Assembly (NCBI GenBank): GCA_030765645.1
Contig: JAVCCE010000059.1
Location: 62,001 to 126,000 of the forward strand
From: Candidatus Hinthialibacter antarcticus
GTDB taxonomy: Bacteria > Hinthialibacterota > Hinthialibacteria > Hinthialibacterales > Hinthialibacteraceae
Direction: 5' to 3'
Length of the DNA stretch: 64,000 nucleotides
The notes under the pieces: model-generated
Seen by the model: the letters and a program-made list of their open reading frames with translations, nothing else
Database searches by the model: none
What the model was told of the DNA's origin: nothing
Position numbers and translations under genes: made by a program
Part shown: one piece after another, positions 18,125-58,282 of the stretch
How positions within the stretch are numbered: the stretch's first letter is position 1
How the letters are laid out: each line of letters opens with the position of its first letter

Positions 18125-19249
18125 ATGCTATATGCAACAGACTCCACACGAGACCTCGTATTTATTACGGTCACCTTGGAAGCAAGTGCGGATGATCCCG
18201 TATTCAATGCGTTTCATCAACTTGCCAACTACCTGAACAGCCGCAACGCGGTGTTATTGCAAGAGCGTATCTTTGCATCCACCAGCGAATTTGCGCGAAT
18301 CCAGGCCCAACGCGCCAAGGCGTTTGAAGGGCTGGGCGATGCAGTCGCGGTTGAGCCGACTTATATTGACGGCGCTGATTGCGAAGGCGCTCCTCTGGCG
18401 GGCATTCATGCGTTGGCAACTTGTCCGAAGTCGGATAAAGACGCGCCGCTGGTCATGCATGAAGGCCGGGCGATTGGGCGCTTTGTGCATGGGCGCGAGG
18501 CGGAATATTGCCTATTGTCTGATGTCAGTGCGTGGACAGGCCAAGATGAGCAAAACCCCTGCCGCGAAACCACGCAAGCCATTCAATTTGCCAACGACTG
18601 TTTGCAACGCCATCAGTGGTCCTATAAAGACGTGCGCCGCACCTGGTTTTATCTCGACAATATTTTAGATTGGTACGACGACTTCAACGCGGCCCGTAAC
18701 ATATTGTATAGCGAACTGGGCGTGTTGAACGGCAAGGCCAATTCGATGATTCCCGCCAGCACCGGCATTATGGGGAGCAACGCCAAGGGGCACCGCTGTA
18801 CCTTAGATTTACTCGCCGCCCGTCCACAAGGCGCCAAGTGCTTTTACGTAGAACGCCTCGTCAACAACAAGCAAAACGAAGCAACGGATTACGGTTCCGC
18901 CTTTTCACGCGGGATGGCGGTGAATACCGAAGTGGGACGCTATATGTTTATTTCTGGCACCGCGTCGATTGATGAAGACGGGCGTACCGTCCATCTAGAC
19001 GATTCAGAAGCGCAGATTCGACGCACGATGTTGAACGTCAAGGTGCTGTTAGAGAGCGTGAACGCAGACTTGTCGCACATTTGCCGCGCGACGGTGTTTA
19101 TGAAATATGCAAAAGACCTGCCGCTGTTTCGCAGCATTGCGGCGGAGTTTGGGTTTCCTGATATTCCTTTGGTCTGTACGGTCGCCGATGTATGCCGCGA
19201 CGACTTGTTATTTGAAATCGACGCAAGCGCAATCTTAAATTGGGTGTAG
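18125..19249 (+). CDS. RidA/YjgF-superfamily protein, FkbO/chorismatase-like layout
   Basis: 374 residues with a RidA-type domain at the C-terminus (GRYMFISGTASIDEDGRTVH at about 276-295, then RATVFMKYAKDLPLFRSI) after a related N-terminal part. Two RidA-like halves in one chain is the layout of FkbO/Hyg5-type chorismatases and of some uncharacterised Rid proteins. RidA proper deaminates enamine/imine intermediates; chorismatases cleave chorismate. Which applies cannot be told from sequence. No signal peptide, so cytoplasmic, unlike all the genes after it. It is first in a tight operon: the next gene starts 4 bases after its stop. GGGGAG lies at 18107-18112, 12 bases from ATG 18125. Confidence 0.65.
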   Translation: MLYATDSTRDLVFITVTLEASADDPVFNAFHQLANYLNSRNAVLLQERIFASTSEFARIQAQRAKAFEGLGDAVAVEPTYIDGADCEGAPLAGIHALATCPKSDKDAPLVMHEGRAIGRFVHGREAEYCLLSDVSAWTGQDEQNPCRETTQAIQFANDCLQRHQWSYKDVRRTWFYLDNILDWYDDFNAARNILYSELGVLNGKANSMIPASTGIMGSNAKGHRCTLDLLAARPQGAKCFYVERLVNNKQNEATDYGSAFSRGMAVNTEVGRYMFISGTASIDEDGRTVHLDDSEAQIRRTMLNVKVLLESVNADLSHICRATVFMKYAKDLPLFRSIAAEFGFPDIPLVCTVADVCRDDLLFEIDASAILNWV

Positions 19250-19253
19250 CGCC

Positions 19254-21026
19254 ATGCCTTCATACCTCACGCCTCGCTGTTTGCGGTGCACTGTCACCGC
19301 ATTGCTGTGCATTTTTATTGTGCATAGCCAGCCCGTTTTTTGTTTGAATCAAGACATTCTCTTCGTCCAAATTCCAAAGACATCTTTAGAATCGGGATTC
19401 ATCGGAGTTCCTGGTGGACGTTATGTAGACGGTTGCCGCATCATGCGGCTGAACCGCGACGGCGAATTGCAAAACCTGACGGAGGGTTTCGCTTCCGCCT
19501 GCGACCCGGCCGTTGATTTTGACGGCAATACGATTTACTTCACGGGTAAGCGCCATCCCGGCGACAATTGGCTCCTATTTAAAATGAACGCGGACGGCAG
19601 CGAGAAAGAGATGATTCCCACGGGGATTGCTCATAGCGTTTCGCCGTTGCGGGTTGGCTCGCTGTTTCATCTGAATGATGAGCACCCAGCGCCGCGTTTG
19701 GTATTCGTCGGGGCGGATGACGGTTGGTTAGAAACAATTGAGCATGATTCCAGCGCGCTCTATTCGTGTTGGATGGACGGCAGCGGCGTGCAGCGAATTA
19801 CACATAACACGCTTGCGGATTTTGATCCGACCGTGTTGCCGAACGGGCGCGTGGTTTATAGCAGCGTGCAAGCAGTCGGAAACAAGTTGCCAAATTGGAA
19901 ACTGATGGCGGTCAACATCGACGGCGCTGACGCCATGCTTTATTTTGGGCAAGATGAGCCGTTCTTTCGCATGTTACAGCCAGCAGCGTCACCCGATGGG
20001 CGCGTGTATTTTATCGAAGATGGGCGTCTCTCTTTTGTCGAACAATGGCGCCCACTTCACACCTACAAAAATCTTGCGAGCGGTTGGTTTTTGTATCCCT
20101 GTCCGATTGATGACGAATCGATCGTGATCTCAAAAAAAGAAGGCGACAAAGACATCTATGCTCTTGTGCGGCTTTCCGCCCAATCCGGCGCCGTGCTTGA
20201 AACGGTCTTGCAAGACAGCGAATACCATTGCGTCGATGCGCAAGTGTTGGCGCCGAACGAACGGGTCGACGGGCGCTCTAGCGTTGTGGATGTCAGAAAA
20301 GAGTCGGGCGTATTGTATTGCCTGAACGTGTATGAGAGCCAGCATGGGTTGGTTCGCGACCTCTCGCCTGGAGGAATCAAAGCAGTGCGCGTGATTGAAG
20401 GGCGCTATGGCAACCACTCCCCAGGGGGAAAGACGCTAGGCGAAGCCCTGGTAGAAGAAGACGGCTCGTTTTATTTGAAAGTCCCGGCGGATACGCCGTT
20501 GAGTTTGCAGCTGCTGGATGAAAGCGGCGAAGCGCTTCGGACGCAATGCGGCGCGATGTGGGTGCGCCCGGGCGAACGGCGCGGTTGCATCGGCTGCCAT
20601 GAAGACCCGGAACTGACGCCGCCCAACCGACTGGCGCAAGCGGTAGTCAAGCCGGCGTTCGATTTCACGTCGACGGCCCCAAAGCCTTGGCTGGATTTTG
20701 TCAGCGACATTGCACCGATGCTTGCTTCGACTTGCGTTCAATGCCACGACTCAACCCATCGGCTTGATTTTTCTTGTGACTCGACAAACAACCGGGAAGT
20801 CAAAGCAATCTATGACAAATTGACGCATGCGGAATCTCTCTCGTTAGACCCCACCAGCTCGACTGTTGGGCTTCTATACATTCAAGCCGGTTCCATTTTG
20901 CTAAGCCCGATTGTTCGCGAGATGCGCGACAAACCGCATTCGTTGGACGCAGACGTGATTCAAACATTCATTGACTGGATCAATCAGGGCGCGCCGTATT
21001 CTATTCAGACGGGAGAACAGCAATGA
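19254..21026 (+). CDS. Exported diheme beta-propeller protein, HzsA-related
   Basis: 590 residues. A signal peptide (about 1-31) precedes a TolB/WD-like propeller (about 35-330, with repeated DFDPTVLPNGRVVYSS-type blades), a middle beta domain and a C-terminal cytochrome c region with two heme sites: CIGCH at 445 (in ERRGCIGCHEDPELTPP) and CVQCH at 494. This order, and ERRGCIGCHE in particular, is that of hydrazine synthase alpha-subunit-like proteins, a family widespread outside anammox bacteria. No partner hydrazine synthase subunits are present, so hydrazine chemistry is not implied. Its stop overlaps the next start (ATGA). Confidence 0.78.
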   Translation: MPSYLTPRCLRCTVTALLCIFIVHSQPVFCLNQDILFVQIPKTSLESGFIGVPGGRYVDGCRIMRLNRDGELQNLTEGFASACDPAVDFDGNTIYFTGKRHPGDNWLLFKMNADGSEKEMIPTGIAHSVSPLRVGSLFHLNDEHPAPRLVFVGADDGWLETIEHDSSALYSCWMDGSGVQRITHNTLADFDPTVLPNGRVVYSSVQAVGNKLPNWKLMAVNIDGADAMLYFGQDEPFFRMLQPAASPDGRVYFIEDGRLSFVEQWRPLHTYKNLASGWFLYPCPIDDESIVISKKEGDKDIYALVRLSAQSGAVLETVLQDSEYHCVDAQVLAPNERVDGRSSVVDVRKESGVLYCLNVYESQHGLVRDLSPGGIKAVRVIEGRYGNHSPGGKTLGEALVEEDGSFYLKVPADTPLSLQLLDESGEALRTQCGAMWVRPGERRGCIGCHEDPELTPPNRLAQAVVKPAFDFTSTAPKPWLDFVSDIAPMLASTCVQCHDSTHRLDFSCDSTNNREVKAIYDKLTHAESLSLDPTSSTVGLLYIQAGSILLSPIVREMRDKPHSLDADVIQTFIDWINQGAPYSIQTGEQQ

Positions 21027-22645
21027 AAAGCATTCTGCTTCCGTTGATTGCTTTGGTTCTATTCGCTTCCACTTCGCTGGCTCAGGACGTTTTTCCGCAA
21101 TTTACTGATGCGACCGAGTCGGCGGGCATTCATTTCAAACACAGCATCGGCGACGAAAAGTTAGATAACATCATTGAATCGACTGGCGCGGGTTGCGCGT
21201 TTTTTGATTACAACAACGACGGCCAACTCGACATTTATCTTGTCAACGGAAGTTACCTGGCGGGGATCAACAGCATCCGCGGACGCAATCAACAAGGCAA
21301 GTTAAAGAACGCGCTCTATCACAATAACGGCGACGGGACCTTTCGCGACGTAAGCGAAGCGGCGGGCGTGGCGGATACCGGTTTCGGCATGGGCTGCGTG
21401 ACCGGAGACTACGACAACGACGGCGATGCGGATTTGTTCGTGACCAACTACGGGCCGGATGTTCTTTATCAAAACAACGGCGACGGCACGTTTTCAAATG
21501 TCACCCAACAGGCAGGCGTCGAAGACGACCGCTGGGGCATCGGCGCATCATTCTTTGATTATGACAAAGACGGCGACCTCGACCTCTACGTCGGCGCCTA
21601 TATTTTGTGGGACCCCGAATACAACTATTACTACGCGCCCGACAAGTTCCCCGGGCCGCTGTCGTATCCCGGACAGCAGGACGCGCTCTATCGCAATAAC
21701 GACGACGGGACCTTCACCGACGTAACCGAAGCCGCTGGATTAACCAATCCCGATGGGCGCGCCATGGGAGTGGCGACCTGCGATATCGACAATGACGGCT
21801 GGGTGGATATCTTCGTCGCCAATGACGCGATGGGAAACTACCTCTACCGCAACCTGGGCGATGGGACATTTGAGGACATCGCCTTGTTGACCGCGACCGC
21901 ATTCGGGCAGAACGGCGAGGCCCAGGCGGCGATGGGGCCGGAATTCGGCGACTTTAACCTCGATGGATTTCTTGACTTGCTGGTGCCTGATATGACCTAC
22001 TGCTGCCTGTACCGCAATACGGGCGACGGCTGGTTTGAAGAGATGAGCAACAAGGCGGGGGTGGCTGCATCCTGCGGGCAGTACACCAGCTGGTCTGGCA
22101 ACTTTTTAGATTTTAATCATGACGGTTGGATTGACATTTTTCTCTCCAACGGCGACAGCCACAAACTCGACGCGGAAGAAGACCTCATCTTGCTCAACCA
22201 AGGCGGCGAGCGCTTTGAAGACGTTTCGGCGCGGCTAGGCGCCGCCATGCAAGATAAGTTCGTTTCGCGCGGATCGGCGGTGGGCGATTATGACGGCGAC
22301 GGCGATTTGGATTTATTGATTGTGAACTTGAATAATCGCTGCCGCCTGTTGCGCAACGACGGCGCCTCGAATACGCCCTGGCTGCAAATCAAACTGCAAG
22401 GGACAAAAAGTAACCGCGACGCTTACGGCGCTGTCGTTCAAGTCACCGCCGGCGGCAAAACCCAAACGCGGTATATCACCAGCAGCTCAGGCTATTTGTC
22501 GCAGAGCCAACAGGCCGCGCACTTTGGCCTGGGCGAGAACAAGAGCGCTGAGCGCGTTGATATCCAGTGGCCTAGCGGCGAAAAGCAATCATTCGAAAAC
22601 GTGGATGCAAACCAAGTATTGACCATCAAAGAACCTCAACAATAA
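21023..22645 (+). CDS. Exported CRTAC1/ASPIC-UnbV FG-GAP propeller protein
   Basis: 540 residues: signal peptide (MKSILLPLIALVLFASTSLA), then an FG-GAP integrin-like propeller with seven calcium-type loops (DYNNDGQLD, DYDNDGDAD, DYDKDGDLD, DIDNDGWVD, DFNLDGFLD, DFNHDGWID, DYDGDGDLD), then an ASPIC/UnbV module at the C-terminus (VDIQWPSGEKQSF). Such proteins are secreted and calcium-binding, and are often encoded beside cytochromes in Planctomycetes and related groups; no reaction is known. ATG 21023 overlaps the preceding stop by 4 bases, showing translational coupling. Confidence 0.88.
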   Translation: MKSILLPLIALVLFASTSLAQDVFPQFTDATESAGIHFKHSIGDEKLDNIIESTGAGCAFFDYNNDGQLDIYLVNGSYLAGINSIRGRNQQGKLKNALYHNNGDGTFRDVSEAAGVADTGFGMGCVTGDYDNDGDADLFVTNYGPDVLYQNNGDGTFSNVTQQAGVEDDRWGIGASFFDYDKDGDLDLYVGAYILWDPEYNYYYAPDKFPGPLSYPGQQDALYRNNDDGTFTDVTEAAGLTNPDGRAMGVATCDIDNDGWVDIFVANDAMGNYLYRNLGDGTFEDIALLTATAFGQNGEAQAAMGPEFGDFNLDGFLDLLVPDMTYCCLYRNTGDGWFEEMSNKAGVAASCGQYTSWSGNFLDFNHDGWIDIFLSNGDSHKLDAEEDLILLNQGGERFEDVSARLGAAMQDKFVSRGSAVGDYDGDGDLDLLIVNLNNRCRLLRNDGASNTPWLQIKLQGTKSNRDAYGAVVQVTAGGKTQTRYITSSSGYLSQSQQAAHFGLGENKSAERVDIQWPSGEKQSFENVDANQVLTIKEPQQ

Positions 22646-22656
22646 CGGATTGAGCA

Positions 22657-25041
22657 ATGAATATACATCGGCTGGTTATTCTTTTTTTCTCCATTGCGTT
22701 AGCAGTTGCGTCGATGGTTTCGGCTGCTGAAGACCGCGTCTATCTCGGCGAAATCTCGTGCCGTGAATGTCACGCAAGCGCCGTCCACCAATGGCGGCAA
22801 AGCGCCCACGCCCGCGCCTACGTTGTGCTGGGGATGCCTGAGTCGAAAGAAATCGCCCGGCTGTCCGGCGTCGATGTTGACCCGTTTGAAAGCCCGATCT
22901 GTTTGGGCTGCCATACCACCGCTTCTGATACGGAAGCCTGGGAGCGCGACGCGGAGTTCTCGTATGAAGAGGGCATTCAATGCGAAATGTGCCACGGCGC
23001 CAGCAGTTCGTATCTCTCCATGCACGAAACCAGCAATTCGGATGAAGCGAGACAGGCGGGATTGTTCATTCCTGACGAACGCTTTTGTATGGTTTGCCAT
23101 AAAGAAAAGGGATCGCATACATCCGTTATCGACGTGAAGCCGTTTGTATTCTCTGAAGCATGGAAGCAGATTTCTCATTCAGAAGAGTATGGCAGAGACG
23201 CTGAATTAGACCCCGCTTGGAAACCGCCGCAGCCCAACCGCAACCAAGCGGGTGCTTATGAAACGGTTGAATACAAAACGCCTTGGAACCTGACGATTTC
23301 TCAAGACGGCGCCCGCTTGTTTGTTGTGTGCGAGGCGTCTGATAGCCTGATGGTATTGAATACGCAAGACGGCGCGATTCTGGCTGAAATTGAAGTCGAA
23401 AATCAGCCGCACGATGTTTGCTTGTCGCCGGATGAATCGCGCATTTACGTCTCCAATCGTGGTTCCGACAGCGTTTCAGAACTAGATGGGCGCAGTTATG
23501 AAATCTTACGGACATTGATTGTCGGCGACGAACCGCACGGAGTGATGATCGACGCCGCGAACCAATTTTTATACTCCGTGAATGCGGGCAGCAGCGATAT
23601 TTCCGTTATCGAATTGTCATCGGGCGAAGAAGCCAAACGCCTGTCTGCGGCGCGGGGCGCTTGGGCGATTGCCTCCAGCCCCGATCACAAAACTGCGTAT
23701 GTGACCAATAACCTTTCGCACTTTGTCGGATTTCGCGAGCCTTCGCGTTCGGAAGTTACGGTTTTGGATTTACAGCGCGGGGTTGTGAAAGACCGCGTGA
23801 TGGTTCCTGATGCGAATCTGATTCAAGGCGCCGATGTCTCTCCTGACGGCGAATTTGCGTTGTGTACGCTGATCCGAACCAAGAACCTGGTCCCGATGAC
23901 GCGGGTGTTGCAAGGCTGGGTGATAAACAACGGCTTCGGCGTGATTTGGCGCGACGGGCGCGTTGATCAATTGTTGATTGACGGAGTCGAGAACTATTTT
24001 TCTGATCCGACCGATATTGTGTTCCGACCGGATGGACGCTTCGCCTATCTTAGCGGCGGCGGCGTCGATGCGGTTGCCGTGATTGATATTGAAAAAATGA
24101 AATCAGTTTTGCAAAACGCCTCTGACCGCGACCGCCGCGAGCGTCTGCCCAATCATCTGGGCGTTAGCGCAGAGTATGTCGTCAAACGTATTGCCGTCGG
24201 ACGCAGTCCGCGCGGGATGGTCGCGTCGCGAGACGGGCGTTTCATTTATGTCGCGGACGGCCTTGACGATACAGTGTCGGTGATTGATGCGCAGACGCAA
24301 GAACGCGTGAACGTGTTTGACCTGGGCGGGCCGGAAGTCATTACCCAGGAGCGTTGGGGCGAACAGATTTTTCATAACGCGCGGGTCACGTTTGGGCGTC
24401 AGTTCTCATGTCATTCCTGCCATCCCGACGGCGGCGTCGACGGCATTACTTACGACATCGAGCCGGACGGCATCGGCGTACAGCCGGTCGATAACCGCAC
24501 CTTGCGCGGCATTCTCGATACGGCGCCGTTCAAGTGGGAAGGCACCAACCCGACGTTGAAACGCCAATGCGGCGCGCGCCTTGCGGTGTTCTTTACCCGT
24601 ATTGATCCTTTCACGCCGGAACAATCCGAAGCGCTCGACCGCTATATCTGCACCATCCCCAGGCCGCCCAACCGCTTTCGTACCGGCGACGAATTGACCC
24701 CGGCGCAACAACGCGGCAAAGCGATGTTCTTTAGAACGCATGATAACAGCGGGAATGAAATTCCTCTGAATGATCGTTGTTCCACATGCCATCCCGCTCC
24801 CTATTACACCAGCCGCACCGTTGAAGACGTCGGGACAAAATCGCCGCTGGATATTCATGGCGAGTTTGATGTACCGCATTTGAATAATATTTATGCGACT
24901 GCGCCTTACCTGCATGACGGGCGCGCGCCGACGCTGGAAGAAATCTGGACGGTGTTCAATCCACAGGATGAACATGGCGTCAGTAACGATATGACCAAAG
25001 ATCAACTTAACGATTTGATTGAATTTTTGAAAACGCTGTAA
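22657..25041 (+). CDS. Six-heme c554-like / YVTN propeller / MauG-like fusion
   Basis: 794 residues, exported (signal peptide about 1-22). Three parts: a tetraheme cytochrome c554-like region (CRECH at 35, CLGCH, CEMCH, CMVCH, to about 155); a YVTN beta-propeller (about 205-560, with repeated RIYVSNRGSDSVSELDGR-type blades); and a diheme cytochrome c peroxidase/MauG-like region (CHSCH at 585, CSTCH at 708, with DVPHLNNIYATAPYLHDGRA). MauG-type domains carry out peroxide-dependent oxidations on proteins or small molecules. Joining it to a c554-like tetraheme in one chain suggests an electron path built into the enzyme. It starts 11 bases after the CRTAC1 gene. Confidence 0.85.
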   Translation: MNIHRLVILFFSIALAVASMVSAAEDRVYLGEISCRECHASAVHQWRQSAHARAYVVLGMPESKEIARLSGVDVDPFESPICLGCHTTASDTEAWERDAEFSYEEGIQCEMCHGASSSYLSMHETSNSDEARQAGLFIPDERFCMVCHKEKGSHTSVIDVKPFVFSEAWKQISHSEEYGRDAELDPAWKPPQPNRNQAGAYETVEYKTPWNLTISQDGARLFVVCEASDSLMVLNTQDGAILAEIEVENQPHDVCLSPDESRIYVSNRGSDSVSELDGRSYEILRTLIVGDEPHGVMIDAANQFLYSVNAGSSDISVIELSSGEEAKRLSAARGAWAIASSPDHKTAYVTNNLSHFVGFREPSRSEVTVLDLQRGVVKDRVMVPDANLIQGADVSPDGEFALCTLIRTKNLVPMTRVLQGWVINNGFGVIWRDGRVDQLLIDGVENYFSDPTDIVFRPDGRFAYLSGGGVDAVAVIDIEKMKSVLQNASDRDRRERLPNHLGVSAEYVVKRIAVGRSPRGMVASRDGRFIYVADGLDDTVSVIDAQTQERVNVFDLGGPEVITQERWGEQIFHNARVTFGRQFSCHSCHPDGGVDGITYDIEPDGIGVQPVDNRTLRGILDTAPFKWEGTNPTLKRQCGARLAVFFTRIDPFTPEQSEALDRYICTIPRPPNRFRTGDELTPAQQRGKAMFFRTHDNSGNEIPLNDRCSTCHPAPYYTSRTVEDVGTKSPLDIHGEFDVPHLNNIYATAPYLHDGRAPTLEEIWTVFNPQDEHGVSNDMTKDQLNDLIEFLKTL

Positions 25042-25053
25042 AGGAGAAATGGC

Positions 25054-26232
25054 ATGTGTTGCCGGATTACATCTCTCGGTTTTATGCTGGCGGCTTGCAT
25101 TGCGATTGCGGCGTATGCGGATGACGCGATGTTGCCCGGCGAACCCTTCGTTTATACGGAGTGGGAAACTTTTTACGCGGAAGAAAACGGGCTGCCTAAC
25201 GATCATATTTTTGCGCTCAAAGCCGACGGCGACCGCCTATGGGTCGGGACGGAAAACGGCCTCGCCTGCTATGAAGACGGCCAATGGAAAACCTGGACGG
25301 AAGCGGACGGCCTGCCCTGGCGCGTTGTCAGCGGAATCGCAATTTCACCAAAGACCGGCGATGTGTGGCTGGGATTGTTCGGCGGCGGCGTGGCGCGGTT
25401 TAGCGCAGGGCGCTTCGACCATTTTCATCAGCTCAACAGCGGCTTGGTGAATGACGTTGTCTACGGCGTCACCATGGTCGGCGATGAACTCTGGGCGGCG
25501 ACCACCGCAGGGACCAGCCGCTATAACACCGCCAGCGGCGAGTGGGAAATCTATACCGAAAAAAACGCGCCGATGGAAGAAATCTGGTGCTACAGCATTG
25601 ATTCCGACCCCGCAAACCAAATGATTTACCTTGCCGTCTGGGGCGGCGGAATCCTTGAATACGATATGAAAACCGGGCAATGGACGGACCATCACGACCC
25701 TGATGGCGAAATGGAAATTGATCTGTATCGCGACGACGGGTTGATTCACATCATCACCACTTCCGTTTCATTTACTCAAGGCGTGATGTGGGCGTCGACG
25801 TACTTTGGGCTGAGTCGGTATGACGGACGCCATTGGCGCGGCTACATGGACCACGACAGCGGACTGCGCAGCAATTTCATCAACTTCGCCAAAGGCCGTG
25901 GCGGTTCGGCTTGTTATAATTGCACGGATGAAGGGTTCTCTGTCCTGACGGATTTTGAAAATGACGTTTGGGTTTCATATTACAGAGAGAGCGAAGACGC
26001 CAAACAATGGTCGGCGAAAATCCAAGTCGGCGCGAATGAAATTAGGACGCAGCCTATTGATCTTAATTTGCCCAACCACTACTCCATCGTCTGCGAATTT
26101 CAGGGCGAGGATGTCTGGCTTGGAACCGGGCACGGCCTGGCGCGCGGCAAGGGCGCCGGGTATTGGCCTGGATTAAAAAAGAAAACCGCGTTGGTCCTTC
26201 CACAAGAGGCGATCCAGGGAGAAACGCCATGA
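25054..26232 (+). CDS. Exported two-component-type (Reg_prop) beta-propeller
   Basis: 392 residues. N-terminal export signal; LAAC at residues 12-15 could be a lipobox, making it a lipoprotein, or the signal may simply end at AYA. The body is a propeller with ligand-type blades such as DRLWVGTENGLACYEDGQWK and ELWAATTAGTSRYNTASGEW, the pattern of the periplasmic sensor part of hybrid two-component proteins. No kinase domain follows, so the sensor stands alone. GGSACYNC adds a CxxC pair that lacks the His for heme. AAGGAG precedes ATG 25054; the stop overlaps the next start (ATGA). Confidence 0.75.
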   Translation: MCCRITSLGFMLAACIAIAAYADDAMLPGEPFVYTEWETFYAEENGLPNDHIFALKADGDRLWVGTENGLACYEDGQWKTWTEADGLPWRVVSGIAISPKTGDVWLGLFGGGVARFSAGRFDHFHQLNSGLVNDVVYGVTMVGDELWAATTAGTSRYNTASGEWEIYTEKNAPMEEIWCYSIDSDPANQMIYLAVWGGGILEYDMKTGQWTDHHDPDGEMEIDLYRDDGLIHIITTSVSFTQGVMWASTYFGLSRYDGRHWRGYMDHDSGLRSNFINFAKGRGGSACYNCTDEGFSVLTDFENDVWVSYYRESEDAKQWSAKIQVGANEIRTQPIDLNLPNHYSIVCEFQGEDVWLGTGHGLARGKGAGYWPGLKKKTALVLPQEAIQGETP

Positions 26233-27542
26233 AATTAAAATTTTCGATATTGGTTGCTTCGGCATTGGTGTTATGTTGTTTCAATTTCATTCAAGCGGAT
26301 GAAGAAGCGGCGGCGCCTAAATACGGCGACACGCCAGCGGAATACGTTCCATTTGGGAAATTCACAAAACCGTATAAAGAATTTTTTTTGGAACCGTTAG
26401 AATATACGGGCTATGGGCGGAATATTCCCGAACCGCAAGGGCTTGAATCAATCCGTATTGGTTTCATCGGTCCGATTGAGTCAACGGTGTCGGTCGCGAC
26501 GGGCGGTATGTCGCATGAAGAACCGTTGGGCGTACAGATGCTGCAAGGCGCGAAACTCGCCATCCAACAGGCCAACGCAAACGGCGGCTATCGCGGCGGG
26601 GTTCCATTTGAGTTGATGGTGCATAACGACAATGGCTTGTGGGGCGCATCCGGCAGCGAAATCATCGACATGGCTTACAAAGAAAAGTGTTGGGCCGTAC
26701 TTGGAACCATCGACGGCGCCAATAGCCATATCGCAATTCGGGTGGCGTTGAAGTGTGAGATTCCGGTGATGAACACTGGCGACACCGACCCGACGTTCAT
26801 TGAGACCAACATCCCCTGGGTGTTTCGTTGCGTGACAGACGACCGCCAGATGTGTTATTTGCTGTCGGATTATGTCTTCAAAAAATTAAAACTGACGCGC
26901 GTTGCGGCGTTGCGGGCGGGCAACCGCTATGGACGCATGAGCATTGATGAATTTCGCGACGCCGCCAAGCGGCTGGGGCATCCCTTTATGGCGGAACTGC
27001 AATACCCGCTTGGTTCCGACGATATGCGGCCTCAGTTAAAGCGCCTGCAAGCATTGGACGTTGAAGCGATCATTACGTATGGTGACGCGCGCGAATCGGC
27101 GTTGTTGCTCAAGCAAATGCGGGAAATGGGGATGCAGCAATGGCTCATCGGCAGCGACCGTATGGTGAGCGACGAGTTTTTTGAGATCGCAGGCGATGCG
27201 GTTGCGCAGGGCAAAGTTGCGGCGGGATATCCGTTTGATCCAACCCGCGACGACCCGAAGTGGGTCCAATTTCAAAAAGACTTTCAGGCGCAATTCAATA
27301 CAGCGCCGGGCCATTTCGCCGCGCATTCATTTGACGGCATGAATATGGTACTCGACGCGATCAATCAGGCGGGATTAAACCGGGCGCTGATTCGCGACGC
27401 GCTGGCGAACACGAAAACCTATCACGGCGTGACCGGAGATAAAGTGTTTGACGCCGTGTTTACCGACCGCAGCCCCGCGACCTTAGCGTTGTTGGAAGAC
27501 GGGGAATTTGAAATCTATACGCAAGATGAAGTTTTCGATTAA
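26229..27542 (+). CDS. Periplasmic ligand-binding protein (Leu/Ile/Val-binding type), paralogue 1
   Basis: 437 residues. Signal peptide (MKLKFSILVASALVLCCFNFIQA), a linker with PYKEFFLEPLEYTGYGR, then a type I periplasmic binding fold: IRIGFIGPIE, GAKLAIQQANANGGYRGGVP, AVLGTIDGANSHIAI and VAALRAGNRYGR. Start ATG 26229 is set by the ATGA overlap with the previous gene and by the signal peptide. Normally such a protein feeds an ABC importer, but no permease or ATPase is encoded nearby, so it may act as a sensor or scavenger for the redox proteins of this operon. The ligand is unknown. Confidence 0.82.
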   Translation: MKLKFSILVASALVLCCFNFIQADEEAAAPKYGDTPAEYVPFGKFTKPYKEFFLEPLEYTGYGRNIPEPQGLESIRIGFIGPIESTVSVATGGMSHEEPLGVQMLQGAKLAIQQANANGGYRGGVPFELMVHNDNGLWGASGSEIIDMAYKEKCWAVLGTIDGANSHIAIRVALKCEIPVMNTGDTDPTFIETNIPWVFRCVTDDRQMCYLLSDYVFKKLKLTRVAALRAGNRYGRMSIDEFRDAAKRLGHPFMAELQYPLGSDDMRPQLKRLQALDVEAIITYGDARESALLLKQMREMGMQQWLIGSDRMVSDEFFEIAGDAVAQGKVAAGYPFDPTRDDPKWVQFQKDFQAQFNTAPGHFAAHSFDGMNMVLDAINQAGLNRALIRDALANTKTYHGVTGDKVFDAVFTDRSPATLALLEDGEFEIYTQDEVFD

Positions 27543-28689
27543 TCGCCGTCGCGCTTTGACTGCGCTCATCAGCGGGATGGGGGGATTCGTTCTTCCATCC
27601 CGTTTTGCGTTTGGCGATCAGCAAACGCCGTATAAGCGTATGTTTGACGACCCGTTGCAATTCACCGGGCCGGATGGCTCTGCGTCGGGCGATCAATATT
27701 GCATCGGCGTCTTCTCGCCGGAGTCGGGAGAGCGCTCTTTGTTGGCGGGCGCTCAACTCGCGGCGGATGAAATCAATCAAGCAAAAATGCTCGACAAGCC
27801 GTTGCGTTTGATTCAGCGCTGGGCGGACGGTCCCTGGGGCGCCGGGTCGCAGCAACTCATCAAGATGGCGTACGAAGATGACGTGATCGCAATCATCGGC
27901 GGGCCGGACAGCGCCTCGACCCATGTCGCGCAGCAGATTGCATTGAAGGCGCACTTGCCCTTGTTGGCGCCAGCCGCGACCGACGCGACGCTGACGGAAA
28001 TTCGCGTTCCTTGGATTTTTCGGATGCCGCCCAGCGATGACGCAATGTCGGCGGCGTTAATGCAATCCGGCTGCATCAAAAACAATACGCGCATGGGCAT
28101 GATCTACGCTGACCTGCATGATGCGCGTATGGCGGCGACGGCGTTTCGCAAAGCGTTGCAAACGCAGAACGCGCCGCCGTTGTTTGATTTTATTGTTCCT
28201 GATGAAATCGGCGCGATGGAAACCGCCATGCAGCGAGCGGCGCAATTTTCACCGGACGTAATCTGGGTGTGGTTTCATCAAGCGCATTTTAAGAAGTTCA
28301 TTAAAAATGCGAAGCGGACGAATTTATGCAAGCGCATTCTGACGCAATGGAAAACCGACGACCCGGTTTCTATAAATAAATCAAGTGGGATTTCTATTAC
28401 ATCCGCTGCGCCGTTTTGGTGGGATACAGGTTCTATAAAAATTCAGAAATTCACAAAAAAATATTCAAAATTTATGAACGGCTCGAAGCCGTCCTATCGC
28501 GACGCCTTCAGCTATGATGCGATCAAGATGATTGCGGAAACGATCAAACGGGGCGGGAATTCGCGTAAGCAATTGCGCGACGCAATTGTAGGTCTAAATG
28601 GTTTCGAGGGTCTTGCCGGGCGTTATGAATGGGACAACGGCAATGGAAATCTTCTACAGCCCGTTGTTGTTCGATCAGGCGTTTATTGA
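27526..28689 (+). CDS. Periplasmic ligand-binding protein, paralogue 2, Tat-type signal
   Basis: 387 residues, paralogous to the preceding gene: the linker PYKRMFDDPLQFTG matches PYKEFFLEPLEYTG, and the fold motifs recur (YCIGVFSPESGERS, GAQLAADEINQA, AIIGGPDSASTHVA). The N-terminus MKFSINRRRALTALISGMGG looks like a twin-arginine signal, unlike its Sec-type neighbour, which hints at a prefolded or cofactor-bound state. ATG 27526 lies inside the end of the previous gene; TTG 27508 is an unlikely alternative. A local AT-rich patch (about 28365-28475) is unlike the rest of the gene. Last gene of the operon; its stop overlaps the convergent glycosyltransferase gene by 7 bases. Confidence 0.8.
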   Translation: MKFSINRRRALTALISGMGGFVLPSRFAFGDQQTPYKRMFDDPLQFTGPDGSASGDQYCIGVFSPESGERSLLAGAQLAADEINQAKMLDKPLRLIQRWADGPWGAGSQQLIKMAYEDDVIAIIGGPDSASTHVAQQIALKAHLPLLAPAATDATLTEIRVPWIFRMPPSDDAMSAALMQSGCIKNNTRMGMIYADLHDARMAATAFRKALQTQNAPPLFDFIVPDEIGAMETAMQRAAQFSPDVIWVWFHQAHFKKFIKNAKRTNLCKRILTQWKTDDPVSINKSSGISITSAAPFWWDTGSIKIQKFTKKYSKFMNGSKPSYRDAFSYDAIKMIAETIKRGGNSRKQLRDAIVGLNGFEGLAGRYEWDNGNGNLLQPVVVRSGVY

Positions 28690-30500
28690 TTGATGAATGA
28701 ACGCTGCATGATAGGCTCCACCCAATCCAACCAATTGTTGTACGTCCAATCGCGCTGAACGCGCTGCCAGGCTTGCTGGCGGATATCATTCATTTGTTCG
28801 GGATGCTGAAGATAAAATTCCACTTTTTGAACGGCTTCATCTAATGACTGGTACGACGCATATTCTTTGCCCGGTTCAAGAAATTCATCGAAGGCGCCGT
28901 CGGATAATTGAAAGCCGCCCATGCCCGCGATATTGAAGAAGCGCATGTTTGGCCCGGTCAAATGCCCTGTTGAATGAATATTGATAAAAATTGCGCCGCG
29001 CTTGAATAGAGTCTGCTCTTGCTCCATCGGCAGCGGGCCGTGTAAACATGAGGTCAACGGCGAATTGGGGGGTCTCCTCCAATTGCCATAGACGTGCAGC
29101 CCCTTGTCAGCGAGACGTTCGAGAATTTGCATGCGGCGCGCGGCGGTTGATTGGCAAAGCAGATAGCGAAACGCTTGATAGGATTCGTCCTCGCCTAAAT
29201 CCGGGATGGGATTTTGCTCGAGGTAATCATATAAATTCAATTGCAAATCAAATTCGCTTAATGCGCGTTCCGCTTCATTGATTGCGTTGAATGCGCGTTC
29301 GCGCGGTTTCCAGACTTGCAGCCAATGGTCGCGTTCGGCGGATTGCAGCCCAAGCGAGTTGCCGACGAACACGATTGGTAGTTCTCCGCAGGTCGGCGTA
29401 GGCGCGTCTGCGACGTAGTCAGCCATGATGGGAACAAAAGCCGCTTGCGGCGCGCCGCGTTGTTCATAGATCGAAATCAGGCGGCGGTCGATGACGGCGC
29501 ATATCTCATTGTCGTAATACTCGCGATCATAGTACGCGATGTTTGAAACCACTTGCACCCAAGGCGCACCGACCGCGTCGAACAGGTCGGGCGCCATGAT
29601 TTGCGGCGCATGGTAGGCATAACTGGCGATCAGTTCCGGGCGGAATTCATCAAGCGTATTGAGCAGTGTATGTTCTAACTCGCGCCGATACTCGCCCAGG
29701 CGCTGATCAAACCGAAAGCCTTTTAATTGAATCACGCGGTTTTGAATATTTCGCGCATTGAGCGCTTTTTGCATTGCTTCAATGTGCGCCTGCTGCGGGG
29801 CGCCAGGCCAACAGTCGAATAATAAAACGCGTTCAATCGGTTGTTTAGAATTCTCTGCCGTCTGTTTGAGCGAAGATAGTATTTCGCTTCGTTTTGATTG
29901 CGCCGCCTGGCTGCGGTGTGGATAGTCTGCTTGGAAACGCTCAACGATAGACTCATCGACTGCGTCGTCAAATACGATGCAGCAAGGCGATTGAGCGTTC
30001 CATAAACTGTTGTCATCAATGGTGCGCCATAGGCCGGCTTCCCTATCAGGCGTGATTGCAACTATGAAGCGCCCAGTCCTGATTGCATCGCGCAAATCAT
30101 TGGTGGAAAGGCAAAGGCGCATTCGTTCTGTGGATGGCTCCAAAACAACAACGCGCAATCGAGGCCGCTGTTGCAACAAAGAGGCCATCGGTCCGGCTGC
30201 GTATCCGGCTTTGCTTCCAATCAAGACGGCCAATTCTGAATCCGGTGGAATGCTTTGCATCGCGTTGCGAATGGCTGCAATCTCTTGCGCGGGCGACTGG
30301 CCGAATATCCATTGGTCCGGGTTTTTCAACGATCGAGCAGCGACTAACGTACCGAGAGATTGCACCTGGATGTCTTCATCATTGGTTGGGAACTGAACCT
30401 GTGTCGTGATTTTAGAACCGAACGCATTTAAGAATTTCAGATTGGCTGTGAATAGAGCCGTATTGAATTCGTGCAATGGAAGCCAAGTTGGATTATTCAT
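28683..30500 (-). CDS. CgeB-like glycosyltransferase family protein (A)
   Basis: 605 residues. The C-terminal third carries the CgeB/Glyco_trans_1_2 pattern: KGLHVYGNW, FKRGAIFINIHSTGHLTGPNMRFFNIAGMGGF, then LEPGKEYASYQSLDEAVQKV. The N-terminal 250 residues look like a Rossmann-type region also seen in flagellin or surface glycan modification proteins (SELAVLIGSKAGYA, RLRVVVLEPS). Probably a cytoplasmic sugar transferase acting on a surface structure. Its start overlaps the stop of the upstream paralogue by 8 bases, so the two are translated together. Donor and acceptor unknown. Confidence 0.68.
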   Translation of the reverse strand: MNNPTWLPLHEFNTALFTANLKFLNAFGSKITTQVQFPTNDEDIQVQSLGTLVAARSLKNPDQWIFGQSPAQEIAAIRNAMQSIPPDSELAVLIGSKAGYAAGPMASLLQQRPRLRVVVLEPSTERMRLCLSTNDLRDAIRTGRFIVAITPDREAGLWRTIDDNSLWNAQSPCCIVFDDAVDESIVERFQADYPHRSQAAQSKRSEILSSLKQTAENSKQPIERVLLFDCWPGAPQQAHIEAMQKALNARNIQNRVIQLKGFRFDQRLGEYRRELEHTLLNTLDEFRPELIASYAYHAPQIMAPDLFDAVGAPWVQVVSNIAYYDREYYDNEICAVIDRRLISIYEQRGAPQAAFVPIMADYVADAPTPTCGELPIVFVGNSLGLQSAERDHWLQVWKPRERAFNAINEAERALSEFDLQLNLYDYLEQNPIPDLGEDESYQAFRYLLCQSTAARRMQILERLADKGLHVYGNWRRPPNSPLTSCLHGPLPMEQEQTLFKRGAIFINIHSTGHLTGPNMRFFNIAGMGGFQLSDGAFDEFLEPGKEYASYQSLDEAVQKVEFYLQHPEQMNDIRQQAWQRVQRDWTYNNWLDWVEPIMQRSFINQ

Positions 30501-32340
30501 CAGCCGTTACTCCATAGCGTTCTTGAATGCGCTGTTGGAACGTACCGATTGCGCGCGGAACGCGGACGCTATACAAGTGTTCGCGCATGACCCGCGCGCG
30601 TCCTTTTTCGATGATGGCTTGCCGTTCTTCATCATGATTTAGAAAATGCGAAATCTTCGATTGGAGTTCATTCAGATCATGATAAAACGCCATTTCAATA
30701 TCCGGCTCAAAAAATGAATCGCCGCCGTCAATCCAATCGGTCAGGATGAATCCGCCGACCAAGGGGCAGTTATAATCGCGCTGGTTCAGGCTGGTCAGCG
30801 CTTGCAGGCTATGAATGTTGAGATTGATTTTGCTTGAATAGAAAATGTTGGGGACGTCGCGTTCGGGGTCCGCCGGGCCGCAAAAGCAATCAAGCAAAGG
30901 GTGGTTTTCTAAATAGAATTTCCAATCGTCATTGCCATAAATCTTTAGTCCAAACGGTCGCGCCCGTTCCAACACGGCGATACGCCAATGCGCGTTGGCG
31001 ACAATATACATGGCATAACGAAGCAATCGCGGCGCGTCATCGCGTTCGTCATCAATGACGCGTAAACCAAATTCGCTTTGGAATTGCAACAAGAGCGACT
31101 GATAACTGCGGTCGCGTTGTTGCGCTTTACAGCGGCCTGCTTTTTCCGCCAGCGCTGCTTCGGACGGCTTAAGGTGCAGCTCGTCGGCATTGAGGCATTT
31201 TACCTGCCCGATGTAACTGACAGGCGAAGCGAAGCATTCATCATATTGCGCCGTTGCGTGGTCCATATCAGCGACGTAAGGAAAAAAATCAACGCTTTGG
31301 GCATTCTTGGCCCGCAAGTCGTCAGCGTACGCGTTGTCCCAGGTGAAGACGAAGTCATGTTCGCCGAAGGCGTCGTCAACAAAACAATTCGGGTCGTCGA
31401 TGCACCAGATAAAGCGCGGCAAGCGAAGGTGGTCGAGTTGTTCGCGCCGGGCGAATTCAGCCGGGGAGCGGTTAATCATCATCATGGCGTCGGGACGCAA
31501 TTCAGCGATTTGTTTTAATAACCGGATGTCGCTGCGGAAGCCCGGCTCATGGTAGACGACTTCCATTTGATTGCGTCGGCATTCATCTAGAAAGCGCTCT
31601 TGAATATACGGGACAGCCTTTGCGGGATCGTTCGCCGTCGACGGAGCGAGTAAATGCTGCAACTGAGATCGGTCTTTTTTTGCGTAATACACTTCGGCGC
31701 CAGTCATCATTTGTTTAAAACGCGCTTTGCCATCGCTTGCGCATTGACGGATGAGCGCTTGCAACTCCGCCCAGGCTGACGTGCGGTCAGGACGACGCGC
31801 CGTGAGAGAGAATAAAATGTCGGGTTGATCGCAGGCGAAGTAATTATGCTCCCAAATCAGAGTTCGTACCTGATCGGCCCAATCGCCGCCGACCGCCCAA
31901 TCAATGCGGTTGCTATTGATCCAGGGCAGCAGCGAACAGGCGGCGAGGGCAAGGTGTAATTGACGCAGGTCTGGTTCAACGATGACCGCCGCTTTGCGCG
32001 GCGCTTGCGATAAGTACGAGGACAAAAGTTCGAGGCTGTACCCTAAATCGCTACCCAATACAAAAATAACATTAGACGTTTCGATGGCAGAAAAACGGTT
32101 GATTTCCTGCTCTTGTATGCGCCGCTGTTTCTCAATGGTTTCAGCCTCAAGTTGCACATCAAATATTCCATCGGCTTCAATCGCCGCTTCAACCAAATGG
32201 TCTGGCGACATCCGCAGCCACAGCGCTGCATCGCCAATGTCGTTGACTGGCAGCGGCGAAAGCCGCCCGGTCAACGCGCTTTGGTTTTCGTGGTATATCT
32301 CAGGAGAAAATTGTGTATGGCGAATCCAGGAAGAATTCAT
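30493..32340 (-). CDS. CgeB-like glycosyltransferase family protein (B)
   Basis: 615 residues, same layout as its downstream neighbour: an N-terminal Rossmann-like part (NVIFVLGSDLGYSLELL, RKAAVIVEPDLRQLHLAL), a central domain (LPRFIWCIDDPNCFVDDAFG) and a C-terminal CgeB-like transferase part (GLKIYGNDDWKFYLENHPLL, FYSSKINLNIHSLQALTSLN). No signal peptide or membrane helix. The pair probably arose by duplication and shares a pathway. ATG 32340 has no clear ribosome binding site; the 164 bases up to the divergent kinase gene hold AT-rich promoter-like sequence. Confidence 0.68.
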   Translation of the reverse strand: MNSSWIRHTQFSPEIYHENQSALTGRLSPLPVNDIGDAALWLRMSPDHLVEAAIEADGIFDVQLEAETIEKQRRIQEQEINRFSAIETSNVIFVLGSDLGYSLELLSSYLSQAPRKAAVIVEPDLRQLHLALAACSLLPWINSNRIDWAVGGDWADQVRTLIWEHNYFACDQPDILFSLTARRPDRTSAWAELQALIRQCASDGKARFKQMMTGAEVYYAKKDRSQLQHLLAPSTANDPAKAVPYIQERFLDECRRNQMEVVYHEPGFRSDIRLLKQIAELRPDAMMMINRSPAEFARREQLDHLRLPRFIWCIDDPNCFVDDAFGEHDFVFTWDNAYADDLRAKNAQSVDFFPYVADMDHATAQYDECFASPVSYIGQVKCLNADELHLKPSEAALAEKAGRCKAQQRDRSYQSLLLQFQSEFGLRVIDDERDDAPRLLRYAMYIVANAHWRIAVLERARPFGLKIYGNDDWKFYLENHPLLDCFCGPADPERDVPNIFYSSKINLNIHSLQALTSLNQRDYNCPLVGGFILTDWIDGGDSFFEPDIEMAFYHDLNELQSKISHFLNHDEERQAIIEKGRARVMREHLYSVRVPRAIGTFQQRIQERYGVTADE

Positions 32341-47066: not shown

Positions 47067-49166
47067 CTAAGAGTCAATGTGCGCGTCATGATCAACGGGC
47101 AAGACGGGCAGCAAGATAACGGCGAAACGGTAGACCAAAACCAGAGTCGAGATTAATCCTGCCGTGACCAGAATTTCGCTGATGCTGGGCATGTATCGCT
47201 CAACCTGATAGACCGGGCGATACGCCGACAGAAACACATTGATACGGTTGAACGCGACGCCTAAGACGACAAGCGTTGAAGCGGTCATTAGCCCTGCAAC
47301 CGAACGGCGTACGTTTTCAAAACAGAGCATAACCATCGGCAGCGCAACGCCCAATCCAACCTCTGTTAAGAACAAGAGGCTGTGCGTACTGCCGTCAAAC
47401 ATCGCGCCAAGTTGTTCGCGAACAGCGAGGTCGCCGATCTTGAAACTAAGGTAGACCAAAAGAATGACGGGAATCGCCTTGCTCAACGAAGACAGCAGGT
47501 GCAATTCCGGTTTTCGCTTGAATGATTTCGACGCCAATACCGATTCAAAAATTACCATTGGGAACCCGACGGAAATGGCCGAGAGTAAAAATAGCAACGG
47601 CAAAATAGGCGTATACCACAGCGTGTTCATCTTCCAGGGCGCGATCATCATCAACGCGCCAAGCGACGACTGGTGCATAAATGACAACACCACGCCTGCA
47701 ATGATGAAGAACATCATCACTTTCGACAGCGTCGCGTCGGCAATGGTCAGAAATGAGTCGATTGGCTTATTCAGTGCGCTCAAGGGGCTGGGCAGATTTA
47801 CGCGTCCCTTAAAGCGTTCCGCCACGATGGGCAAAAATTCGATGTAGAGAACTGTGAGGTAAAACGTAACGCACAGGCCGACTTCAAACAAAACGGAATG
47901 GCCCGACCACATCCACGGCATCATCGGATGCCAGACGTTGTAGTATCGTCCTAAATCCGCTGTCAAACCAATGACGACGAAGGTGTAACCCAACACTGCC
48001 GTTAACAGCGCCGGTCGGACCAAGTCGTGATATTTTTCGCGATGGAAAATATGCGCAACGGCGGCGGTGGTAAAACCGCCTGCTGCGAGCGCAACGCCAG
48101 TGGCGACGTCGATGGCGATCCAGATTCCCCAAGGGAACTGGTCATTCAGGTTTGTTACGGAGCCTATGCCGAAAATGAAGCGCCATAGCCCAGCCAGTAG
48201 TCCTGCGCCAGCGACTAACATCAGCGCAATGACGCCTGGAGTGATAAACTGGCGCTCTACCGGGGCTGCATGGGAAATGTGTTCGTCTGTTTCATTGACT
48301 TCTTTGGTACGTTTGGTGAATGCCGCCGCCATTCCTAACACGCCGAAGGCCGCCGCCTGGGGAATAAAATGTTTGAAGATTCCATGTTGAAGCGGTTCGG
48401 TAATCTGCGGGGGCGCTTCGGTCCCGAGAGTCGGCAGACCGGTGTCTTCAAAAGGCTGGCTGGATATATACATCCATGATGCCCCGCCGACTTCATGCTC
48501 GCCGTAGACATGGTCAATATAATCATCGGGATGAGTGTCCACCAACTGATGGGCGAGCGTGACCAACTCGTCCCGCTTGCCGAAGGTCAGGCACTGCGGA
48601 GGACAAACCTCGACGCACGCCGGGACGCCGCCGTCAGAGATGCGCTCAATACAGAACGTACATTTCTGCACCTTAGGAACCAGCGGCTCATCATACTCAT
48701 ACGCGGGAATCTGGAACGGACACGCCACCATACAATAGCGGCACCCCATACAACGGCCGGCGTCATATTCGACTGCGCCGTTTTCCCGTTTCTCCAATGC
48801 GGACACAAGACACGCTGACACGCAAGCCGGGTCGTCGCAGTGCATACATTGAAACTTTACGTTTAAGGGTTTCTCTGCGGCGGGCGGATCATACTGGTTG
48901 ACGATGGTGTAGTGGTCAGAGTCAGGGCGCCTCAACATTTCGAAGACGTCCACCGTTTCCCATGATTCCAGCGTTTGGGTGGGTAAGTGGTTTGACTCGT
49001 TGCAAGCCCACTCACACTTGCGGCAGCCGATGCACTTTGTTACGTCTACTAATACGCCGTATACATCCGCTAAGTTTTGTTTCGCTTCATTCGCAAAAAC
49101 GGGACGGCCTGCAACGCAGACCGTCCCGGCAATTGAAGCGGTTCTAAAGAAATCGCGTCTGTCCAT
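47067..49166 (-). CDS. Ferredoxin-NrfD fusion, quinone-linked oxidoreductase subunit
   Basis: 699 residues. A Tat signal (MDRRDFFRTASIAGTV) is followed by an NrfC/HybA/HmcB-type domain with four [4Fe-4S] cysteine sets: CIGCRKCEWAC, CMHCDDPACVSAC, CMGCRYCMVAC, and CTFC...PACVEVC. After a linker (about 255-300) comes an NrfD/PsrC-type domain of about eight to nine membrane helices (for example WSGHSVLFEVGLCVTFYL). The two are normally separate subunits (NrfC+NrfD, HmcB+HmcC); here they are one chain. The domain exchanges electrons with the quinone pool. ATG 49166 has AGGAG upstream. It sits between the 11-heme and 13-heme genes. Confidence 0.9.
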   Translation of the reverse strand: MDRRDFFRTASIAGTVCVAGRPVFANEAKQNLADVYGVLVDVTKCIGCRKCEWACNESNHLPTQTLESWETVDVFEMLRRPDSDHYTIVNQYDPPAAEKPLNVKFQCMHCDDPACVSACLVSALEKRENGAVEYDAGRCMGCRYCMVACPFQIPAYEYDEPLVPKVQKCTFCIERISDGGVPACVEVCPPQCLTFGKRDELVTLAHQLVDTHPDDYIDHVYGEHEVGGASWMYISSQPFEDTGLPTLGTEAPPQITEPLQHGIFKHFIPQAAAFGVLGMAAAFTKRTKEVNETDEHISHAAPVERQFITPGVIALMLVAGAGLLAGLWRFIFGIGSVTNLNDQFPWGIWIAIDVATGVALAAGGFTTAAVAHIFHREKYHDLVRPALLTAVLGYTFVVIGLTADLGRYYNVWHPMMPWMWSGHSVLFEVGLCVTFYLTVLYIEFLPIVAERFKGRVNLPSPLSALNKPIDSFLTIADATLSKVMMFFIIAGVVLSFMHQSSLGALMMIAPWKMNTLWYTPILPLLFLLSAISVGFPMVIFESVLASKSFKRKPELHLLSSLSKAIPVILLVYLSFKIGDLAVREQLGAMFDGSTHSLLFLTEVGLGVALPMVMLCFENVRRSVAGLMTASTLVVLGVAFNRINVFLSAYRPVYQVERYMPSISEILVTAGLISTLVLVYRFAVILLPVLPVDHDAHIDS

Positions 49167-49203
49167 GATGTTTCTCCTGGAGGAAGGAGAAACGCAGAAG
49201 CGC

Positions 49204-51156: not shown

Positions 51157-51236
51157 GTTTATCTCCTGTTGTGGGCGATTCGCGTTGATAGTCTCAACGC
51201 AATAGTATATGTGAAACGAACTCAGCCGTTTTCTTC

Positions 51237-54041: not shown

Positions 54042-54405
54042 GTCCACCTCGGTGTGTAGTTCTCAACAATGCGTTTACTTTAAGAGTATATTCCTATTTA
54101 GCTAAGAAAGTAAACGGTGCAATCAGGTTTTTGGTCAATCTTTACAGTCAAATCAGGTTGCGCCGTTTAATCAATAAAATTTAAATTTATTAATTTGATA
54201 AATAATAATATATATAAAGTTTATAAACTATTTTTTGGGAACAAATTAACTTTCTATTCCGATTAAACCATAGAAATGAAAAAAAATCACAAAAATTTGA
54301 ATTAAGATATTGCCAAAACGAAGGACAATGTGTTAGATATATTCATTGCTGTTTAGCTATCAAGCGATTCAGCCTATATAACGCTTCATCTTTGGGTATT
54401 TCGGA
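54042..54405. promoter_or_regulatory. 364-base divergent control region between the two cytochrome operons
   Basis: AT-rich and full of repeats: GTTTACTTT (54073-54081) with AAAGTAAAC (54107-54115); TAAACGGTGCAA (54111-54122) with TTGCGCCGTTTA (54158-54169), one mismatch; direct repeats AATCAGGTT at 54121 and 54151, 30 bases apart; and the ArsR-type words ATTTAGCTAA (54096-54105) and TTTAGCTAT (54352-54360). No reading frame fits. It must hold the promoters of both operons. Confidence 0.65.
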
Positions 54406-56277: not shown

Positions 56278-56303
56278 TTTGTTCAACCTAAGGAGTATGC
56301 ATC

Positions 56304-56870: not shown

Positions 56871-56900
56871 GATACAACAAAGGACAATGGCGCAGCCGGT

Positions 56901-58280: not shown

Positions 58281-58282
58281 TT

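Follow-up and report, generated by a model that had tools for sequence, protein, structure and literature searches.

A periplasmic operon of Candidatus Hinthialibacter antarcticus joins diverged hydrazine synthase subunits to a chorismatase-type protein

Gene content of the operon

Candidatus Hinthialibacter antarcticus (Hinthialibacterota) carries an operon that encodes relatives of hydrazine synthase (HZS) together with a chorismatase-type protein. The operon lies at 18125-28689 on the plus strand of the 64,000-nucleotide stretch analysed here (assembly GCA_030765645.1, contig JAVCCE010000059.1, positions 62,001 to 126,000), hereafter the window, and its seven open reading frames (ORFs; Table 1) were all found where expected and are tightly coupled. 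An initial annotation, made from the letters alone, had described seven coupled genes with gaps of 4, 11 and 12 bases and three overlaps, and the recomputed ORFs and junctions agree in full. The 4-base gap separates the chorismatase-type gene from the gene for the HZS alpha-like protein, the 11-base gap follows the CRTAC1-type gene, and the 12-base gap lies between the beta-gamma fusion gene and the Reg_prop gene. Overlaps of 4 bases join alpha to CRTAC1 and Reg_prop to the first of two solute-binding protein (SBP) genes (SBP1, ATG at 26229), and one of 17 bases joins SBP1 to SBP2 (ATG at 27526). The four beta-propellers and eight heme sites of the annotation were likewise recovered, as PD40, FG-GAP, YVTN/lactonase and Reg_prop propellers and as eight CXXCH motifs, two in alpha and six in the fusion. 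Judged by eye, six of the seven proteins have signal-like N-terminal leaders, that of SBP2 with a Tat-like RRR, and the first protein has none. Promoter and terminator scans gave results not usefully above those from shuffled sequences.

The alpha-like protein consists of a beta-propeller, an HZS_alpha middle domain and two CXXCH motifs (CIGCH and CVQCH). Its matches to Pfam HZS_alpha (74.6 bits) and PDB 5c2v_A bear out its earlier description as a diheme HzsA-like propeller; against NF052339 it scores 112 bits, short of the cut-off of 800. A Foldseek search with its AlphaFold2 (AF2) model placed the alpha subunit of 5C2V first (E 8.7e-27), with TolB-type propellers as the next unrelated fold at 4e-10. 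The model is poor in the C-terminus (overall pLDDT 62), and heme pockets were not taken from it.

The fusion protein had been called a six-heme/YVTN/MauG fusion. All six CXXCH motifs are present, and Pfam, NCBIfam and PDB matches correct its identity to cytochrome c554 plus an HzsB-like propeller plus an HzsC-like diheme domain (5c2v_B, E 5.5e-36; 5c2v_C, E 8e-18; 1bvb for c554; NF052342, 184.9 bits, under the cut-off of 1250). Its gamma-like domain carries a gamma-I motif CHSCH, Trp627 at the position of gamma-His144, Cys638 as the counterpart of gamma-Cys165, and a gamma-II motif CSTCH. The single c554 module adds four hemes to the gamma pair, making six in all; most relatives have two tandem modules, with eight extra hemes and ten in total, and the single module of the window is one of several such reductions among them. 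Because the fusion is a beta-gamma homologue and the gene two upstream is alpha-like, the operon encodes all three HZS subunits in diverged form.

At least two further HZS-like sets are present in the same genome (G000). Contig C28 (L009:214-5173) has a 995-aa alpha followed by a 624-aa beta-gamma with two CXXCH motifs, and contig C65 (L008:7343-9955) has an alpha-like gene of 870 aa at the contig end. No chorismatase-type match was found beside these sets on C28 and C65.

Table 1. Features of the operon in window coordinates, with the evidence for each
Feature	Position	Strand	Evidence
Chorismatase-type protein (FkbO/Hyg5-like, Rid superfamily), cytoplasmic, 374 aa	18125..19249	+	TIGR04444, PDB matches, AF2 model and Foldseek, residues
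HZS alpha (HzsA)-like protein, 590 aa	19254..21026	+	Pfam HZS_alpha, NF052339, PDB 5c2v_A
CRTAC1-type FG-GAP propeller, ASPIC/UnbV C-terminus, 540 aa	21023..22645	+	Domain match; conserved place
c554 module + HZS beta-like 7-bladed propeller + HZS gamma/MauG-like diheme domain, 794 aa	22657..25041	+	NF052342, PDB
Tetraheme cytochrome c554 module, ~aa 29-154 of fusion	22741..23118	+	Pfam Cytochrome_C554 and comparison
Gamma-like diheme domain, ~aa 566-794 of fusion	24352..25038	+	PDB match, alignment
Reg_prop-type periplasmic propeller, 392 aa, no kinase part	25054..26232	+	Domain match; conserved
SBP1, type I periplasmic binding protein (Peripla_BP_6 / HAAT family), ~437 aa	26229..27542	+	Domain match
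SBP2, diverged SBP1 paralogue, Tat-like leader, ~387 aa	27526..28689	+	Domain match; TTG alternative start 27508

Relation to hydrazine synthase

The alpha-CRTAC1-beta-gamma cluster is of an already published kind. Clusters of the form alpha-CRTAC1-(c554)-beta-gamma were reported in December 2025 as HZS homologues without a function (Hagglund et al., PMC12758564), and at the sequence level the operon fits their clade I by gene order, c554 module and residues. Both have the order alpha, CRTAC1, c554-beta-gamma, both keep gamma-Cys165 with His144 replaced by Trp and no Tyr591, and the single c554 module is as reported for Opitutus terrae, two being found elsewhere. The clade I description mentions neither a chorismatase-type first gene nor a DAHP synthase; no Reg_prop gene was seen in the sections consulted, and a remark there on SBPs seems to concern another clade. 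The initial annotation had known of no described pathway with this make-up: the cluster itself has since proved to be published, and its function and its chorismatase and DAHP synthase genes are indeed undescribed there.

Compared with anammox HzsABC (PDB 5C2V), the operon has homologous alpha, beta and gamma folds and the triple-Cys gamma-I heme, but it differs in its fused c554 hemes, in its reversed gene order and in residues of the heme pockets, whose roles we take from the literature (PMC12607021, PMC12758564). An equivalent of Tyr591 is absent from all 81 operon alphas, which have no Tyr within the six residues that follow the alpha-I CXXCH, whereas all seven anammox sequences have CH-x-GSY. 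The gamma-His144 position is Trp in every operon protein with a letter there (57/57) and His in 5/5 anammox proteins. By alignment, the equivalent of gamma-Cys165, predicted to supply the third thioether of heme gamma-I, is Cys in 56 of 58, including the window protein. Full-length anammox alphas score 1351-1641 bits against NF052339, far above the window alpha, and in a tree of anammox and 57 operon-type beta-gamma proteins a very long branch with full support divides the two groups. One divergent acidobacterial locus (L117) has CRTAC1 before alpha, lacks an equivalent of gamma-Cys165 (RQDG) and forms a long branch in the tree.

The operon complex is not a hydrazine synthase. The shared subunits, with beta and gamma fused, could suggest a true hydrazine synthase in an unrecognised anammox-type host, and anammox has been proposed for UBA1845 Phycisphaerae, in which hzsA lies next to a fused hzsBC (PMC10732223). 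Such an identity is extremely improbable here, in view of the uniform loss of Tyr591, the His144 to Trp change, the NCBIfam scores far under their cut-offs and the failure to find an HAO/HDH-family gene (PF13447) in this genome, an absence that is not absolute at ~96% completeness. Hydrazine synthase activity was also rejected for these clades by Hagglund et al. (PMC12758564).

Octaheme HAO-family genes were found in only about half of the operon genomes tested, and because this co-occurrence is patchy there is no fixed nitrogen partner. The same patchiness bears on whether gamma-I might reduce nitric oxide (NO) or hydroxylamine with electrons from c554, the chorismatase being separate or loosely linked. 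The triple-Cys gamma-I heme is retained, and in the current model of HZS it is gamma-I that reduces NO (PMC12607021); against this, the change of His144 to Trp renders the pocket more MauG-like, and several clades share the link to a chorismatase. We regard nitrogen-oxide chemistry as improbable.

The chorismatase-type protein and its genomic context

The product of the first gene had been taken for a RidA-like protein. It matches Rid (PF01042) in its C-terminal third only, whereas its PDB sequence matches over the full length are the chorismatases Hyg5 and FkbO (5ag3/4bps). With an AF2 model of pLDDT 87, the top seven Foldseek hits were all chorismatases (E 6e-17 to 6e-15, TM 0.63-0.73); the two-domain chorismatase fold covers the model end to end, and Rid proteins cover only part of it. 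The catalytic Glu334 of Hyg5 corresponds to E364 and the three CH-II residues Gly, Gly and Cys to G214, G278 and C357 (assignments after PMC7170507), all four being invariant in nine relatives. In two relatives the FkbO/Hyg5 N-domain also scores above its Pfam cut-off, and in other genomes the same slot holds a single-domain version of 160-200 aa with the same signature. The score against TIGR04444 is 58.5 bits, below the cut-off of 325; by sequence the protein is therefore named only chorismatase-type and is not a member of that subfamily. With FkbO, Hyg5 and XanB2 it has in common the full-length two-domain fold, the catalytic Glu and the CH-II residues, but its identity to Hyg5 is ~19% in structural alignment, and it sits with a periplasmic heme complex rather than with a polyketide, pigment or ubiquinone pathway. 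Fold and residues together predict that it probably acts as a chorismatase.

Loss of the Rid identity weakens an amine or amino-acid oxidation pathway, in which the SBPs would capture an amine, the heme complex would oxidise it, and a Rid protein would hydrolyse the imine or enamine. The Rid superfamily does deaminate imines (PMC4433059), and the SBPs are nearest to amino-acid SBPs. Arg105, however, which imine hydrolysis by Rid proteins needs (PMC4433059), is replaced by Val in the first-gene product and by Ser in the single-domain forms; the fold is that of a full-length chorismatase, and the linkage to DAHP synthase would be left unexplained. Amine oxidation is, in our judgement, unlikely.

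The operon is present with its gene order kept in all five other genomes of the family examined (G002 without an SBP2 match), and genomes from other families of the class, the neighbouring one within the order among them, gave no close alpha match. Scanning genome contigs with the single alpha sequence yielded no relatives, whereas a scan with an alpha alignment yielded 284, and the best 80 of these were retained. Most of these 80 loci have the operon order, and they bear more than ten different phylum labels (Planctomycetota, Acidobacteriota, Verrucomicrobiota, Gemmatimonadota, Omnitrophota, Desulfobacteraceae, Latescibacterota, Caldithrix, Aminicenantes, Sumerlaeota and others). These labels were assigned by the submitters and include clear errors: the loci L043, L044 and L046 are almost identical, although filed under Deferribacteres, FCB group and Actinomycetota, and are mislabelled bins. 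In the 32 loci whose flanks are complete, the six periplasmic genes (alpha-CRTAC1-beta-gamma-Reg_prop-SBP1-SBP2) are all present in 26, four miss SBP2 alone and two have fewer; in three of the 26 the order of ORF starts is shuffled by overlapping frames. The adjacency is therefore no product of chance, and the scattering in relatives that would have told against a unit was not seen. In G005 the operon region is found on two contigs (C124 and C153; L037 and L038) with the same match values, reflecting a duplication or an assembly artefact.

In nearly every locus CRTAC1 separates alpha from beta-gamma. This near-constant adjacency to the gamma-bearing gene, and the place of the gamma-like domain in the CCP/MauG family with a conserved Trp, would suit a role in protein maturation, the MauG-like domain oxidatively modifying a partner (CRTAC1 or Reg_prop) or building a protein-derived cofactor with no small aromatic involved. 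We hold this to be rather improbable, as there is no known modification site and the binding proteins, chorismatase and DAHP synthase would go unexplained.

A survey of both flanks for further universal partners returned only DAHP synthase, whose reaction opens the shikimate pathway, and a nitrilase-like gene in some Planctomycetota. DAHP synthase adjoins the operon in 10 of the 80 loci, its identity being confirmed by Pfam for two of them and by a score above the NCBIfam cut-off for L043, and the chorismatase-type gene or its single-domain form adjoins the operon in many. Where the operon lacks the gene, it usually lies elsewhere in the genome: in other phyla, 14 of 15 genomes with the operon have one or the other form somewhere. 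Apart from the operon, G041 has a cluster (L190:5258-9441) in which DAHP synthase accompanies a second CRTAC1 and a single-domain gene of the chorismatase type, and in two Gemmatimonadota (L177:7940-10805 and L178:8173-10981) the chorismatase-type gene adjoins a MenA-like UbiA prenyltransferase, a hint of a prenylated aromatic or quinone. Other HZS-like clades have the orders DAHP-CRTAC1-(alpha)-beta-gamma-Reg_prop-Rid-SBP (L194, L196), alpha-beta-gamma-chorismatase (L193, L201) and beta-gamma-chorismatase-alpha (L195, L175). HZS-like clusters of several clades thus carry a chorismatase-type gene, often with DAHP synthase, and adjacency in differently ordered clusters is independent support for the association. 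In one sample of 199 Planctomycetota genomes, the chorismatase-type gene is present in 14 of the 18 that have non-anammox HzsA-like genes and in 10 of the remaining 181 (Fisher p ~4e-12, uncorrected for relatedness); the seven anammox genomes of this sample gave no chorismatase-type match. We consider the chorismate link of HZS-like operons well supported. The main text of Hagglund et al. (PMC12758564) has no chorism-, L-PSP or DAHP word, and our literature search returned no paper joining hydrazine synthase with chorismatase; within that search, the link to chorismatase and DAHP synthase across HZS-like clades is, to our knowledge, new.

Several genes lie around these loci. In five Planctomycetota loci (L055, L060, L065, L066, L081), the nitrilase-like CN_hydrolase gene follows SBP2 directly on the opposite strand. 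In the window, two tandem genes on the minus strand (28683-32340; products of 605 and 615 aa, each with a C-terminal Glyco_trans_1_2 domain) overlap each other by 8 bases and run into the 3' end of the operon. Further away, at 47067-59245, an NrfD/FeS protein gene (47067-49229) and multiheme cytochrome genes (51237-54047, 54406-56277, 56304-56870, 58241-59245) resemble a quinone-linked respiratory complex; the 56304-56870 product is of c554 type, similar to the module of the operon fusion.

A possible role in aromatic metabolism

The initial annotation had proposed a periplasmic oxidation pathway, with clusters associated with pyrroloquinoline quinone (PQQ) dehydrogenases as its nearest known counterpart. 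A periplasmic redox unit of propellers, hemes and binding proteins stands; the PQQ analogy and the Rid identity do not. The operon shares a YVTN-type propeller and a type I SBP with those clusters (TIGR03866, TIGR03863), but it has no PQQ dehydrogenase, and its scores are far below the cut-offs (TIGR03863, 20 versus 413.6 bits; TIGR03866, 108 versus 287 bits).

We give roughly even odds that the operon, as a clade I HZS homologue and not a hydrazine synthase, takes part in the metabolism of a chorismate-derived aromatic. The cytoplasmic chorismatase would split chorismate into pyruvate and a hydroxybenzoate (3-hydroxybenzoate by signature), a step that a linked DAHP synthase would support in other genomes. 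The aromatic or a derivative of it would reach the periplasm, where SBP1 and SBP2 would hold substrate or product; that the periplasmic complex has the chorismatase product as its ligand we put at an even chance. The alpha/beta-gamma complex would then act on the aromatic at its gamma-I heme, with the triple Cys and the Trp, and the fused c554 hemes would connect this heme with the respiratory chain, carrying electrons in one direction or the other. That the chemistry is a heme-dependent redox or coupling reaction is a tentative and somewhat doubtful suggestion.

Several observations weigh against this proposal. With a TIGR04444 score under the cut-off and so low an identity to Hyg5, the substrate of the first-gene product could have shifted. 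G044 gave no chorismatase-type match, in many Planctomycetota the chorismatase-type gene sits elsewhere in the genome, outside the operon, and the co-occurrence statistic includes no kinship correction. Among solved structures, the SBPs have amino-acid binders as their nearest homologues; for SBP1 these score above Rhodopseudomonas-type receptors, which bind aromatic acids. No obvious exporter for an aromatic was seen within the operon.

For the only relatives of hydrazine synthase, an enzyme of unsettled origin, the link to chorismatase and DAHP synthase that recurs in several HZS-like clades offers a first concrete substrate hypothesis, with chorismate as the input, a hydroxybenzoate as the output and the aromatic in the periplasm. 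More speculatively, and we think this rather unlikely as a whole, non-anammox HZS-like complexes may form a widespread enzyme family, present in many phyla, that acts on a chorismate-derived hydroxybenzoate, which a novel periplasmic heme coupling or oxidation would convert into an undescribed aromatic redox molecule. The results speak against inferring anammox from hzs-like genes in metagenomes. If the aromatic reading of the family is true, the hydrazine synthase of anammox bacteria would have been recruited from an aromatic-processing enzyme.

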